Shown piece by piece: positions 3,104 to 8,778 of a stretch of DNA of 64,000 bases. This DNA is from Marivirga aurantiaca (GTDB taxonomy: Bacteria; Bacteroidota; Bacteroidia; Cytophagales; Cyclobacteriaceae). Where the stretch lies: NCBI RefSeq assembly GCF_016679925.1, contig NZ_JAEQBW010000011.1, positions 1 to 64,000 of the forward strand. Reading direction: 5' to 3'. A model generated the notes under the pieces. That model ran no database searches. It had not been told where the DNA came from and saw only the letters and a list, made by a program, of their open reading frames with translations. How positions within the stretch are numbered: position 1 is the stretch's first letter; every line of letters begins with the position of its first letter. A program made the position numbers and the translations under genes.

Positions 3104-3610
3104 TCATCGTTCAGCATCTGAATTTTCTTTTCTATGCTCCTGTATGGTATCATATTTTTCCGGGGCATAAAGAAAACCAAAAGCTTCGGCTCCTTCTTTA
3201 GTGTGCACTTCATGATGAATATAATGTGCTTTCATCATCCTTTTAAGGTAAGGATGCCTGGCTTTAAATTTTATATTTATTCTCCGATGCACCAGTACGT
3301 CATGAAATAACACATAGAACAAACCATAACAGGCCACTCCTATTCCTACAAACAGTAACCAGCGAACTTCAGGAAATTCAATACCTGCCATAATTAAAAT
3401 AGCAGAGGGCACACTAAACACCACTGCAAAAAGATCATTTCGCTCTAGCACATGATTATGTACCTTATGATGTGATTTGTGCCAGGACCATAAAAATCCG
3501 TGCATAATATATTTATGGGTAAACCAGGCTACTCCTTCCATAAAAAGAAAAGTGCCTACAATTAAAAAACCGTAGAATATAATCAATAATATATCAGACA
3601 TATCAAACAA
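3104..3610 (-). CDS. crtZ: Beta-carotene 3-hydroxylase (CrtZ type)
   Basis: A 168-residue membrane protein of the fatty-acid hydroxylase/sterol desaturase superfamily. It carries the di-iron histidine clusters of CrtZ: HKYIMH (H32, H37), HKSHH (H44, H47, H48), HDVLVH (H103, H108) and HYIHH (H129, H132, H133), between hydrophobic segments. The family adds 3-hydroxyl groups to beta-ionone rings, turning beta-carotene into zeaxanthin. It is the last gene of the carotenoid operon, 18 bases after ispH. No lycopene cyclase is in the window, so that step must be encoded elsewhere. A start at residue 4 is also possible. Confidence 0.92.
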   Translation of the reverse strand: MFDMSDILLIIFYGFLIVGTFLFMEGVAWFTHKYIMHGFLWSWHKSHHKVHNHVLERNDLFAVVFSVPSAILIMAGIEFPEVRWLLFVGIGVACYGLFYVLFHDVLVHRRINIKFKARHPYLKRMMKAHYIHHEVHTKEGAEAFGFLYAPEKYDTIQEHRKENSDAER

Positions 3611-3628
3611 ATATACTACAGAATAACA

Positions 3629-4474
3629 TCAATAATTTAAAAGTTCATCTCTTACTTGTTCCATCAACCACATGGGAGTTGATGTGGCCCCACAGATTCC
3701 CACAGAGTCATTTTCCTGAAACCAATCTTTATTGAGTTCAGAGGTATTTGAAATAAAGTATGTGTTGGGGTTCTGATCTTTGCAAACATTGTAAAGTACT
3801 TTGCCATTTGAAGATTTTGTACCCGAAACGAAAACAACTTTATTGAAAACACCTGCAAAAACCCGTAACTCTTTGTCCCTGTTGGAAACCTGCCTGCAAA
3901 TAGTATCATTGGAATTAACTGTAATTCCTGATTTTGTAAGTATCTCTTTAATTTCGTAAAATTTATCTGTGCTTTTAGTGGTCTGGCTATAGAGTGTTAA
4001 ACTCCTTGGCAGAGAATCAATATCTAATTCCTTTATATCCTGAAAAACAACAGCTTCCTGATTGGTTTGTCCGAGAAGCCCCTCCACTTCCGCATGGCCA
4101 TGCTTGCCATAAATGTAAATCTGTTCCTTTTTGTCGAAGGAATTTTTGATTCTATTCTGCAATTTTAGCACCACAGGACAAGAGGCATCAATTAAAGTAA
4201 GATTGTTTTCAATAGCCAATTTATAAGTTGAAGGCGGTTCCCCATGGGCTCTAATCAATACCTTTTCATTCTTAATATGTAACAGGTCTTCTCTATCAAT
4301 AATTTTGAGTCCTTTTTTCTCCAGCCTTTTTACTTCTTCATCATTATGCACAATATCACCCAGGCAAAACAAGTGTCCTTGCTCTTCAAGCATGTCTTCT
4401 GCCATCTCTATAGCATACACTACTCCGAAACAGAAACCAGAATTATTGTCTATTTTAACACTTAAATTTAACAT
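3629..4474 (-). CDS. ispH: 4-hydroxy-3-methylbut-2-enyl diphosphate reductase
   Basis: This 281-residue enzyme performs the last step of the MEP pathway, reducing HMBPP to IPP and DMAPP with a [4Fe-4S] cluster. The three cluster cysteines are C15 (GFCFGV), C99 (DASCPVV) and C193 (TICRQVSNR). The substrate-binding histidines H43, H77 (RAHGEP) and H127, and the proton-relay E129 (HAEVEG), are all present. It sits inside the carotenoid operon, 12 bases after crtB, so isoprenoid precursor supply is co-expressed with pigment synthesis. Length and motifs are those of a complete enzyme. Confidence 0.95.
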   Translation of the reverse strand: MLNLSVKIDNNSGFCFGVVYAIEMAEDMLEEQGHLFCLGDIVHNDEEVKRLEKKGLKIIDREDLLHIKNEKVLIRAHGEPPSTYKLAIENNLTLIDASCPVVLKLQNRIKNSFDKKEQIYIYGKHGHAEVEGLLGQTNQEAVVFQDIKELDIDSLPRSLTLYSQTTKSTDKFYEIKEILTKSGITVNSNDTICRQVSNRDKELRVFAGVFNKVVFVSGTKSSNGKVLYNVCKDQNPNTYFISNTSELNKDWFQENDSVGICGATSTPMWLMEQVRDELLNY

Positions 4475-4486
4475 GGCTGAATTAAA

Positions 4487-5329
4487 TTATAAAGCATTGA
4501 ACTGATGTTTTAAATAACTACTGAACAGTAAAAATAGTTTTTGAGAATCCTTTATCCGGACCCTTTCATTCATTATTTTTTGGGGAGGATAGTTTTTTAT
4601 TTTTTTGAAAAGGTTTAAATAATAACTGTAGGCAAGGTAAACCCCTAACCTGGCTCCTGCCGGCAAACGTACAATTCCTTGATATGCGGCATCAAAATCC
4701 GCTTGTATATCAGACTCAATTTGATCTTTATGGTTTTTGGAGAAACTTTTGAAATCGATCCCGGGGAAATAAACCCTGCCCCTGTCATGATAATCCGATT
4801 TAATATCTCTCAGAAAATTAATTTTTTGAAAAGCAGCTCCCAAATTTTTAGCTGCAGGAAGTAAATCATTGTACTTTTCATCATTCCCCTCACAAAATAC
4901 CTTAAGACACATGAGTCCTACCACTTCTGCAGAACCATAGATATATGTTTCATAAGTTGGTTGATCATAATCAATATCATGTAAATCCATCTCCATACTA
5001 TGCAAAAATGCTTCTATCAAATCCAGCGGAATGTTATATTCATTCACTACCATTTGAAAGCAATGTAAAACAGGATTGAGGCTTATTTTTTGCTCAATTG
5101 CTTCATAGGTGTGCTTTTTGAATAATTTTAAAAGGTTTGCTTTATCCTTATCATGAAAAGTATCCACAATTTCGTCAGCATATCTAACAAATCCATAAAT
5201 GCCATATACCGGATATTGAAACCTTTTATGCAAAGTTTTTATACCAAGCGTGAAAGAAGTACTATAACGCTGAGTAATCAGCTTGCTACATTCAAAAGTT
5301 GTTTGGTCAAATAATTCTTTAGCATCCAT
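4487..5329 (-). CDS. crtB: Phytoene synthase
   Basis: A 280-residue all-helical squalene/phytoene synthase that condenses two geranylgeranyl diphosphates head-to-head to phytoene. Both Mg-binding aspartate motifs are visible: DEIVD at 52-56 (RYADEIVDTF) and NFLRDIKSD at 171-179, followed by DRGRVYFP. It lies 8 bases downstream of crtI and 12 bases upstream of ispH, in one operon. The C-terminal region with several lysines (IKNYPPQKIMNERVRI) is normal for the Bacteroidota enzymes. Confidence 0.95.
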   Translation of the reverse strand: MDAKELFDQTTFECSKLITQRYSTSFTLGIKTLHKRFQYPVYGIYGFVRYADEIVDTFHDKDKANLLKLFKKHTYEAIEQKISLNPVLHCFQMVVNEYNIPLDLIEAFLHSMEMDLHDIDYDQPTYETYIYGSAEVVGLMCLKVFCEGNDEKYNDLLPAAKNLGAAFQKINFLRDIKSDYHDRGRVYFPGIDFKSFSKNHKDQIESDIQADFDAAYQGIVRLPAGARLGVYLAYSYYLNLFKKIKNYPPQKIMNERVRIKDSQKLFLLFSSYLKHQFNAL

Positions 5330-5337
5330 GAGACTTT

Positions 5338-6816
5338 TTACATTTTAAAATCTTTCACTACCTCTTTGCCCACTACTTGTCCTGAAATCAAAGATGGGGG
5401 AACTCCCGGACCGGGTACAGTTAACTGCCCGGCATAATAAAAGTTTTTCAACTTCTTGTTTTTCAATGAGGGCTTCAGGATAGCCGTTTGCTTAAGTGTA
5501 TTGGCAAGCCCATATGCATTCCCCTTATAAGAATGATAATCGCTTTTAAAGTCATTGTGCGCAAAACTTCTCTTATAAACAACATGCTCTTTAATTTCCT
5601 CGCCCAACAACATTTCCATTCTATCTATTATCAAATGATAATATTTCTCCCTTATTTCTTCCGTATCCTCTAAATCAGGAGCAACCGGCATAAGTATAAA
5701 AAGGTTCTCCATACCCTCAGGCGCTACTGTATCATCTGTTTTGGAAGTAGCACTCACATAAAAAAGTGGTGCTTCCGGCCATTTTGGATCAGAATAAATT
5801 TCCCTTGCATGCGGGCCAAAGTCATGGTCAAAAAATAAATTATGATGAACAAGCCCCTCTATTTTTTTATCAATTCCGAGGTAAAAAATAAGAGAGGAAG
5901 GTGCTAAAGAGCGTGTATCCCAGTATTTTTCAGTATAATTCCCATAAGCTTTGGGCAGTATCTTTTGGTCGGTATGTTCATAATCTGCAGAAGAAACCAC
6001 CGCATCTGCGTGATAAGAAGCATTTTGAGTTATAACTTTTTTAACAAATTTACCTTCACACTCTACAGACATTACTTCCTGTTCAGCAATAAATTTCACT
6101 CCTTTTTCTTTTGCCAGATTTACCATAGCCTCCACAATTTTATACATTCCTCCTTTAGGATACCATGTACCAAGGCTAATATCAGCATAATTCATTAAAC
6201 TATAGAGGGCAGGAGTATTTTCAGGTAAAGCACCTAAAAATAGTATAGGGAATTCCATGAGACGTATGATCCTCTCATTTTTAAAATACTTCCTGACATG
6301 GCTGTGAATTGATGAAAATATATCCAAACGAACCATATCAAAAAGCAGCTTTGGGTTCATAAATTCCATCAATGAGCGACCAGGCTTGTATACCAGATCG
6401 TTGATGCCTTTTTCATATTTGTAGGCAGCTTGCTCCAAAAACTTCTCCAAAGCTTTGGCACTTCCGGGCTCCATGTTTTCCAACATCTCCTTGAATCGTT
6501 CCATATTGGCAGGTACTTTCAGGATGTCATCCTTACCAAAAACAACATGATAAGAGGGGTCTAATCTCTCCAATTCATAAAAATCCGATGTTTTCTTTCC
6601 AAATGTTTCAAAATACCTATCGAAAACATCGGGCATCCAATACCAGCTGGGTCCCATATCAAAGGTAAAACCCTCTGCCTGGAACTGACGAGCCCTTCCT
6701 CCTAATTCCTTATTTTTTTCCAATACGATAACTTCGTATCCCTTGTCGGCCAAAAAAGTAGCTGTGGATAAACCAGCAAAGCCTGAACCAATCACTACAA
6801 CTTTCTTCCCGGACAT
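5338..6816 (-). CDS. crtI: Phytoene desaturase (CrtI-type)
   Basis: A 492-residue FAD-dependent carotene desaturase. It has an N-terminal dinucleotide-binding motif (VVIGSGFAGLSTATFLA, then ExxxxxGGRA) and the C-terminal family signature FYYAGQLTVPGPGVPPS. CrtI enzymes introduce the four double bonds that turn phytoene into lycopene. The gene starts 6 bases after the sigma-factor stop and ends 8 bases before crtB, so the three are co-transcribed. Related desaturases and ketolases exist, but the pairing with crtB supports phytoene desaturase. Confidence 0.94.
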   Translation of the reverse strand: MSGKKVVVIGSGFAGLSTATFLADKGYEVIVLEKNKELGGRARQFQAEGFTFDMGPSWYWMPDVFDRYFETFGKKTSDFYELERLDPSYHVVFGKDDILKVPANMERFKEMLENMEPGSAKALEKFLEQAAYKYEKGINDLVYKPGRSLMEFMNPKLLFDMVRLDIFSSIHSHVRKYFKNERIIRLMEFPILFLGALPENTPALYSLMNYADISLGTWYPKGGMYKIVEAMVNLAKEKGVKFIAEQEVMSVECEGKFVKKVITQNASYHADAVVSSADYEHTDQKILPKAYGNYTEKYWDTRSLAPSSLIFYLGIDKKIEGLVHHNLFFDHDFGPHAREIYSDPKWPEAPLFYVSATSKTDDTVAPEGMENLFILMPVAPDLEDTEEIREKYYHLIIDRMEMLLGEEIKEHVVYKRSFAHNDFKSDYHSYKGNAYGLANTLKQTAILKPSLKNKKLKNFYYAGQLTVPGPGVPPSLISGQVVGKEVVKDFKM

Positions 6817-6822
6817 TATTTC

Positions 6823-7335
6823 TTAATTCGTTTTCGCATACACTTTAAGAGCATATTTCAACTCTTTCCTAGCAATATGGATTCTATTCTTAACAGTTCC
6901 AATAGGAATTTCCAATTTCTCAGCGATTTCATGGTATTTGAATCCCCTGAAGTGCATCATGAATGGGTTTTTATAGACTTCATCCAATTTCTCCACCTGA
7001 TTTATAATATCTGCCATGGCAAAACTTCCATATGCAGTGTTTTGGGCAATATTCTCTGTTGAATTAATAAAATGCAGATTCTCTGTTGTATCAATAAAAG
7101 TTTTTCTTCTCACCATTCTCTGATAATTAGTGATGAAAGTATTCTTCATAATAGTGAACAGCCATGCCTTTAGGTTGGTACCCTCAGAAAATTTATCCCT
7201 GTTTGAAAATGCCTTTAATACAGTTTCCTGTATTAAGTCATTCGCCTGCTCCATGTCCTTTGTTAATCTCAAAGCAAAAGGCTTCATAGATTTTGTCATG
7301 TTATTAATTGCGTAACCAAATTCTATAGCTGTCAT
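6823..7335 (-). CDS. RNA polymerase sigma factor, ECF type, first gene of the carotenoid operon
   Basis: A 170-residue sigma-70 family protein with region 2 (KDMEQANDLIQETVLKAF and LKAWLFTIMKNTFI) and region 4 (KYHEIAEKLEIPIGTVKNRI, a helix-turn-helix), and no anti-sigma gene beside it. An upstream in-frame start at 7383 exists, but it lies inside the promoter (boxes at 7360-7367 and 7388-7391). The start chosen is therefore ATG at 7335, about 18 bases after the predicted transcription start. It is the first gene of the operon with crtI, crtB, ispH and crtZ. Its likely role, inferred from position, is to direct light- or stress-linked transcription, possibly of this operon itself or of distant partners. 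Confidence 0.88.
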   Translation of the reverse strand: MTAIEFGYAINNMTKSMKPFALRLTKDMEQANDLIQETVLKAFSNRDKFSEGTNLKAWLFTIMKNTFITNYQRMVRRKTFIDTTENLHFINSTENIAQNTAYGSFAMADIINQVEKLDEVYKNPFMMHFRGFKYHEIAEKLEIPIGTVKNRIHIARKELKYALKVYAKTN

Positions 7336-7351
7336 GATTGTTCTATTTAGT

Positions 7352-7383
7352 TTGTTTAACAAATGTATATTATAATTAAACAA
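7352..7383. promoter_or_regulatory. Inverted repeat across the crt promoter, candidate operator 1
   Basis: TTGTTTAA (7352-7359) and TTAAACAA (7376-7383) form a perfect 8-base inverted repeat with a 16-base spacer. The spacer contains the -7 box of the crt operon promoter. A dimeric repressor bound here would block RNA polymerase. The same half-site recurs at 7397-7427. The CarH-like protein encoded just upstream is the natural candidate to bind, but that is an inference. Confidence 0.5.
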
Positions 7384-7391
7384 AATGCAAA
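7360..7391 (-). promoter_or_regulatory. Promoter of the sigma factor-crtIB-ispH-crtZ operon
   Basis: Read on the minus strand, TTTG (7391-7388) is followed by 20 bases and then TACATTTG (7367-7360). This matches the Bacteroidota primary-sigma promoter (-33 TTTG, -7 TAnnTTTG). Transcription would start near 7353, about 18 bases before the ATG at 7335. Confidence 0.75.
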
Positions 7392-7396
7392 CTTTC

Positions 7397-7427
7397 TGTT
7401 TAATTTATTTACCACTTATATTAAACA
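7397..7427. promoter_or_regulatory. Inverted repeat upstream of the crt promoter, candidate operator 2
   Basis: TGTTTAAT (7397-7404) and ATTAAACA (7420-7427) form a perfect 8-base inverted repeat with a 15-base spacer, just upstream of the -33 box. The half-site TGTTTAA and the spacing closely match those of the repeat that straddles the -7 box. A fifth copy of the half-site is at 7527-7535 (TTGTTTAAT) without an obvious partner. Confidence 0.45.
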
Positions 7428-7842
7428 TAATGATAATTTATAGCTCTTCAATTTGAATTATATGGCGATATAATGCCTATAAAACCCTAATTTAATGTAG
7501 TTACACGTATTATTTAAGAAATAGTTTTGTTTAATATTTCATGTAAAAAATTAATCTTACGAAGCACTATCAAAAATTCATTATTAATTACGCATTCTAA
7601 TAACATATCAGATTTCTGAAAAATAATAGTAGAGCAGACACAGTGAGGTGAGAGGAATATCTAAAATGCAACTATTGATTTTTACTCTCTTTATCAGTTT
7701 AGAGGCTTCAAAGAGAAATATAATTAGTGTATTACTGAATTTTTGATTTCAGTTAGCTCCCATGGATGGAAGAAGCGTAAGGAATAATTGATATAAGGTA
7801 TAAATTTCAGAAATTGGCCTGAGAAAATAATCCTCCAAATCT
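7428..7842. other. Long AT-rich leader region between the regulator and the crt operon
   Basis: About 415 bases without a supportable gene. Apart from one TTGTTTAAT half-site at 7527-7535 I see no terminator-like hairpin after the regulator gene and no structured RNA. The length is unusual for this window, where most gaps are under 150 bases. Confidence 0.5.
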
Positions 7843-8778
7843 TTAATGATATCTCATTTCTTGTTCGGTGTTTTTATCATGAGGAACGTACTTTAAATCT
7901 ATGTTTTCCAGATAAGAATTTAGATCTTCCATTTTCATGAGAAACTCCACATTCTTTTTCCTCTTAATGTCCTGTCCGATCACCTGAAAGCCTCCCACAA
8001 AAATAGTAGCATCACTAAATAAATCAGCTACTTCATTAATGTACTGCTGAATTTCAGCTTTTTTAGGTGCAGTAGTGCAAGTAGTCAGTACAAAATCCGG
8101 CTGGTGAATCCCCTTTACTGAAGATAAATCTTCTTTTGGCAGGCTCTGTCCCAAGTAAATCACTTTATGTTTTTTTGATCTTAACAAAAAAGCTGCAAAC
8201 AGCAAAGATAGCTCATGCAACTCATTTTCAGGCAAGTACAGCAGCCATTTCCCTTTGGATTCCCTTTCGGTGACATATTGCCCGTCAATGGCTACTATCA
8301 ATTTCTGCCGGATCAAATTGGAGATAAAGTGTTCTTGCGCTGGCAAGATGCTCCCTGTTTGCCATAGCATGCCAATTTTAGAAAGGAAAGGATAAATAAT
8401 ACTAATCATGGCTCTTTCAAAGCCATGTTTTATGATATTATTGCTCAATATCTTCTCAAATCTATCCTCATCCATATCAATCATGCTCAGTGTTAGAGAA
8501 TTGATTTGATCCGGAAACCTCAGGTTCGATTCTGCAATTTTCAAAACCGCTGCAGCCATCTCTGATTCAGTCATTTTAGCGATATTGGAGATTTTATACC
8601 CATTCTCCTTCAGTGTGGATATATTAAGTATCAACTTCAAATCCTTGTCACTATAATAGCGAATATTGGTAGTTGTCCTTTGGGGTTCAATAAAATTGTA
8701 CCGCTGCTCCCAAATCCTAAGGGTATGGGCCTTAATACCCGATAAATGCTCTAAATCCTTGATAGAATAGTTACTCAC
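7843..8778 (-). CDS. MerR-family regulator with cobalamin-binding domain (CarH/LitR-like)
   Basis: A 311-residue protein. Residues 1-70 are a MerR winged helix (YSIKDLEHLSGIKAHTLRIW, then the RYYSDKDLKLI wing). Residues 90-165 are a four-helix B12-cap domain. Residues 175-290 are a Rossmann B12-binding domain. The CarH photoreceptor signature W-x9-EH is intact (W139, E149, H150), and the lower-ligand histidine is in place (H188, in ELHELS), though the usual glycine three residues on is serine. In the known family, adenosylcobalamin-loaded CarH represses carotenoid genes in the dark and releases DNA in light. Its position upstream of the crt operon on the same strand fits that role. Confidence 0.85.
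   Translation of the reverse strand: MSNYSIKDLEHLSGIKAHTLRIWEQRYNFIEPQRTTTNIRYYSDKDLKLILNISTLKENGYKISNIAKMTESEMAAAVLKIAESNLRFPDQINSLTLSMIDMDEDRFEKILSNNIIKHGFERAMISIIYPFLSKIGMLWQTGSILPAQEHFISNLIRQKLIVAIDGQYVTERESKGKWLLYLPENELHELSLLFAAFLLRSKKHKVIYLGQSLPKEDLSSVKGIHQPDFVLTTCTTAPKKAEIQQYINEVADLFSDATIFVGGFQVIGQDIKRKKNVEFLMKMEDLNSYLENIDLKYVPHDKNTEQEMRYH

Follow-up and report, generated by a model that had tools for sequence, protein, structure and literature searches.

Conserved inverted repeats at the carotenoid promoter of Marivirga aurantiaca as the likely operator of a CarH/LitR-like MerR regulator, with a putative light regulon in the Bacteroidia

In the analyzed stretch of 64,000 nucleotides from Marivirga aurantiaca (the window), the promoter of a carotenoid operon carries two inverted repeats of the word TGTTTAA, and these repeats are real and strongly conserved. 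It is likely that they form the operator of the adjoining CarH/LitR-like MerR regulator, which in its adenosylcobalamin (AdoCbl)-bound form would repress the sigma-crt operon in the dark and release it in the light. The analysis shows the repeats, their conservation, symmetry and position at the promoter, the set of genes they precede and how this set depends on the presence of the regulator, the sensor residues and the predicted fold; MerR binding, repression and the control by AdoCbl and light are inferred. The same site was found in front of rhodopsin genes and members of a small number of further families throughout the Bacteroidia, which suggests a light regulon that has not been described.

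The genes of the locus are located on the minus strand in the order MerR gene, a 460-bp gap, ECF sigma, crtI, crtB, IspH-family gene and probable hydroxylase gene. The operon that would be controlled starts with the ECF sigma factor gene (6823-7335), whose probable ATG is at 7335; an alternative TTG start at 7383 lies upstream of the -7 box. It is followed by the genes of a crtI-type bifunctional phytoene desaturase (CrtID, 5338-6816; NF058655 with 773 bits, cut-off 640), a crtB-type phytoene synthase (4487-5329; SQS_PSY match) and a LytB/IspH-family isoprenoid enzyme (3629-4474; LYTB match). The last gene of the operon (3104-3610) encodes a small histidine-rich membrane protein with no Pfam or NCBIfam match, which is probably a CrtZ-like carotene hydroxylase as judged by its histidine motifs. 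The promoter is of the Bacteroidetes type. Its -7 box TACATTTG (7360-7367; consensus TAnnTTTG) and its -33 box TTTG (7388-7391), both on the minus strand, are 20 bp apart.

Two perfect 8-base inverted repeats are found at this promoter exactly where the original prediction had placed them, TTGTTTAA (7352-7359) with TTAAACAA (7376-7383) at a spacer of 16 and TGTTTAAT (7397-7404) with ATTAAACA (7420-7427) at a spacer of 15. Reduced to the 7-base core common to both, they become a promoter-proximal palindrome TGTTTAA-N16-TTAAACA (7353-7382; half-sites 7353-7359 and 7376-7382) and an upstream palindrome TGTTTAA-N17-TTAAACA (7397-7427; half-sites 7397-7403 and 7421-7427). Also as predicted, the former straddles the -7 box and the latter is located just upstream of the -33 box. 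The former covers most of the -7/-33 spacer as well, and the -33 box separates one palindrome from the other. The word TGTTTAA occurs 19 times on both strands of the window, and five of these words lie inside 182 bp at the promoter. The only two occurrences of the paired pattern in the window are those at this promoter, and 100 window shuffles gave none. A fifth half-site on the plus strand (7528-7534, within TTTTGTTTAAT at 7525-7535), which had been proposed as a further weak site, is present but unpaired and shows no conservation within the genus (mean identity 0.70 in a ten-species Marivirga alignment). It probably lies outside the operator. The merR-sigma spacer contains a second conserved block, which precedes the sigma start by about 150-170 bp (minus strand, 7470-7510). 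It is an ATGT-n4/5-ACAT inverted element in most Marivirga species, e.g., ATGTATATACAT, and its copy in the window is degenerate (ACGTGTAACTACAT).

For comparison with related promoters we used 110 loci that encode a relative of the MerR protein; the sigma gene follows in 56 distinct loci. An unbiased scan of these 56 merR-sigma promoters for every 7-base inverted repeat with spacers of 0-30 ranked TGTTTAA-N16 first of all dyads (39 of 56 promoters; N17 in 13), and the best dyad of any kind in shuffled promoter sets reached 2. Absence of the repeats from close relatives had been named beforehand as the finding that would speak against them; at least one pair with up to two mismatches is present in all 56 promoters, from Cytophagales, Chitinophagales and Flavobacteriales, versus 4% of shuffles. 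The identity of the four half-sites in ten Marivirga species is 0.99, 0.94, 0.99 and 1.00, with 0.46 for the remaining spacer. N17 in the window results from a 1-bp insertion, the nine other Marivirga species having N16. These tests refute chance hairpins, which are common in AT-rich regions like this one, and with an empty result in the window shuffles, a first-ranked dyad and a strong ten-species footprint their probability is negligible.

The sequence logo is symmetric (tTTGTTTAAY), with both halves conserved to a similar degree. Successive pairs are mostly 44-45 bp apart in Cytophagales, and in the Chitinophagales, which form a second group, they are 55-56 bp apart. Overlap of a palindrome with TAnnTTTG was seen in the window as well as in most relatives, and the offset of the -7 box within the palindrome is 14 or 15 in Cytophagales and 4 in Chitinophagales. 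The operator has moved relative to the promoter and yet still covers the -7 box, a point in favor of repression by exclusion.

Genome-wide, spacers 16 and 17 gave 146 sites in 59 relative genomes (73 per spacer; summed by hand). Ten other, shifted spacers together gave 53 sites (5.3 per spacer), and a reversed control gave 9. Genomes with the regulator carry 2.7 sites on average and those without it 0.43 (p 2e-4), a comparison that is not fully independent because the regulator-negative genomes mostly belong to one small-genome, partly incomplete family. In one genome (83% complete), in which the regulator was not found, a sigma gene is nevertheless preceded by a site. The two sites of another regulator-negative genome were rejected as promoter sites, since one overlaps an apparent gene start and the other lies inside a local repeat. 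An extra site in the genome of M. aurantiaca itself (C22:75685) was likewise rejected as a target; it precedes an IS1595 transposase and is probably a chance or moved site.

Several genes recur beside the other sites, encoding rhodopsin, 6-pyruvoyl tetrahydropterin synthase (PTPS), a short-chain dehydrogenase (SDR) together with GTP cyclohydrolase I, fasciclin and sigma factors. Within the order of M. aurantiaca, a site with at most one mismatch precedes 38 of 76 rhodopsin genes in genomes with the regulator and 0 of 14 in genomes without it (Fisher 2e-4), and shifted spacers gave 2 of 304. In other orders of the Bacteroidia the site is present at 22 of 50 rhodopsin genes (shifted spacers 0 of 200). 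In one genus, three genomes have both the regulator and the rhodopsin site and a fourth has neither. PTPS genes are preceded by the site in 14 of 30 cases versus 0 of 30 for recA. Even in genomes that have the regulator, a clear site is missing at about half of the genes for rhodopsin and PTPS. The MerR gene itself is preceded by a site with at most one mismatch in 9 of 95 relatives versus 1 of 380 controls. The operator reading of the original prediction is supported at the crt promoter by conservation; the larger putative regulon had not been seen there.

Two further candidates were rejected. Autoregulation of merR in the window was discarded with three mismatches in the best match there. 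Photolyases, two of which are among the genes beside the sites, are not a general target, as the site precedes only 1 of 30 genes of the best-scoring subfamily (one mismatch) and 2 of 20 of the second. Fasciclin-domain genes directly adjoin the palindrome in several genera (eight loci). In three genera, a gene for a TetR-family (TetR_C_23) regulator follows the palindrome on its downstream side and is a possible further target. The PTPS gene of M. aurantiaca (C11:1023709) has no palindrome, its best match carrying three mismatches; the other Marivirga PTPS genes examined have one with 0-1 mismatches, and a recent loss is possible. Genomes with at least two rhodopsins tend to carry the site before one copy only (eight loci), which suggests that the paralogues are controlled differently.

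The palindrome could also be the promoter of the operon's own ECF sigma factor, its halves serving as -35 and -10 boxes in an autoregulated, sigma-driven regulon. Spacers of 16-17 are typical of promoters, the sigma gene adjoins the sites, and the TAnnTTTG box is seldom found at rhodopsin sites (7 of 38). However, the halves are a single inverted word, similarly conserved and with mismatches on either side, and two copies of the element, 44 or 55 bp apart, frequently surround an independent TTG/TAnnTTTG promoter. Moreover, sites with up to one mismatch precede merR without a sigma gene within 3 kb in 4 of 41 cases, and the half-site core fits the CarH recognition word. We regard a sigma promoter as very improbable and favor an operator of the MerR protein.

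This protein (7843-8778, minus strand), the proposed reader of the operator, combines a MerR winged helix (PF13411, E 4e-18) with B12-binding_2 and B12-binding domains (PF02607 and PF02310, the latter with 31.1 bits slightly below its cut-off of 32.1). Its recognition helix contains RIWEQRY, and RxWE[QH]RY is present in 95 of 96 relatives. It matches Thermus CarH in sequence (E 5e-18), and its predicted fold (pLDDT 87) matches Thermus CarH structures best, over residues 86-293 (5c8e: Z 21.5, rmsd 2.6, 199 residues). Sequence and predicted fold thus support the earlier description of the regulator as CarH-like; with 94 bits over residues 3-273 against a curated cut-off of 400, it is not filed as an NF052513 CarH equivalog. 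Among 96 relatives, no variation was seen at the positions equivalent to W131, E141, H142, E175 and H177; the Thermus CarH reference, apart from a few end residues, and the motif columns were taken from the pairwise alignment. The motif Wx9EH, said to separate CarH from CarA, occurs in 96 of 96. From the B12 motif D/ExHx2G/P - SxT/V - GG, the E and the lower-ligand His are invariant in the 96 proteins. The protein of the window has ExHxxS, T for S and an intact GG; the relatives vary, the equivalent of G180 being Ser in 57 of 96 and the first Gly of GG Ser or Thr in most. His132 is the upper ligand in the light state of Thermus CarH, and its equivalent is not conserved among the 96 relatives. 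The photoreceptor signature consists of GxxW, EH, GxxH and GxxxP (PMC11796333). GxxW and EH are found in 96 of 96 proteins, GxxxP in the protein of the window and 83 of 96, and the Gly of GxxH in 84 of 96, with Asn in the protein of the window.

The degenerate B12 motif and the variable His132 position would also suit a MerR protein that reads the operator independently of B12 or light and answers another signal or partner, as known for Myxococcus CarA and class II LitR (PMC9304148, PMC9758184). Against this, the Trp of Wx9EH, which is lost in CarA, as well as EH and the lower-ligand His are all invariant, the GxxW and EH of photoreactive domains are always present, and the target list is light-related. 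Such a regulator is rather unlikely. The favored view is that of a CarH/LitR-like repressor, probably controlled by AdoCbl and light, with an inverted-repeat operator.

Bound to AdoCbl in the dark, dimers or a tetramer of the protein would fill the four TGTTTAA half-sites. With the -7 box and also the surroundings of the -33 box covered in this way, RNA polymerase would be kept out and the ECF sigma-crt operon would be off. Light would break the Co-C bond and loosen the protein, and the operon would be derepressed. The half-sites of the window start at 0, 23, 44 and 68 bp and those of most Cytophagales at 0, 23, 44 and 67 bp, about two helical turns apart. One head-to-tail dimer of Thermus CarH touches repeats 1 and 3, which are 22 bp apart (PMC9304148), and the spacing observed here would therefore fit a CarH dimer. 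As the half-site partners are inverted, the DNA-binding domains would have to turn relative to the Thermus arrangement. Since the operator is found elsewhere in the class before genes for rhodopsin, PTPS, SDR/GTP-cyclohydrolase and fasciclin proteins, and in some cases before merR, a broader light regulon would be under the control of this protein.

Characterized CarH operators are tandem 11-bp direct repeats (PMC9304148, PMC8156234) of the form nAnnTnnACAn (PMC8156234), and operator design within the CarH family is reported to be plastic (PMC9304148). Read as TAAACA, the core of the half-site agrees with TnnACA within this repeat, and only that core is shared. To call the layout a natural CarH operator is only partly right, as the repeats are inverted and not 11-bp direct repeats. 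Thermus thermophilus CarH/LitR shares the MerR winged helix, the two-part B12 domain, Wx9EH, the lower-ligand His and an operator that overlaps the promoter with a core fitting TnnACA. Its operator consists of three tandem 11-bp direct repeats, whereas here inverted pairs 23-24 bp apart are duplicated. The operator of Myxococcus CarA/CarH at P_B is similarly a large (~55 bp) two-part operator at the housekeeping promoter of a crt operon and is bound cooperatively by two CarA dimers. There, direct repeats are described that lie over -35, whereas in Bacteroidota inverted repeats lie over -7 and the first gene of the operon encodes an ECF sigma factor. Pseudomonas PplR/PmlR2 (class II LitR) are also LitR-family repressors, with a pterin gene (folE) and photolyase in their regulon. 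Their site TGTACA-N12-TGTACA differs in word and spacing from the TGTTTAA palindrome, class II LitR is without the full B12 domain, and PmlR2 has a LOV partner; in the available part of PMC9758184, rhodopsin does not appear as a target.

According to PMC3587595, the regulation of proteorhodopsin transcription in marine flavobacteria calls for further work. In Dokdonia (Bacteroidota), rhodopsin expression varies between strains, the cause is likewise left to further work, and beyond sigma factors no regulator or operator is proposed in the available part of that paper. In the open-access literature we found neither a CarH operator in Bacteroidetes nor CarH control of a rhodopsin. On balance, we slightly favor the view that across the Bacteroidia the genes for proton-pump rhodopsins are, together with carotenoid and pterin genes, under the direct control of a B12-based photoreceptor of the CarH type whose operator is an inverted repeat, which would explain light-induced proteorhodopsin expression in this group. 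The CarH operator design would also extend to inverted repeats. The palindrome and the adjoining regulator offer a specific DNA word and a specific candidate for the photoreceptor through which light may control pigment and rhodopsin genes in the Bacteroidia. The operator makes proteorhodopsin regulation directly testable and predicts which strains would be light-inducible and which constitutive.
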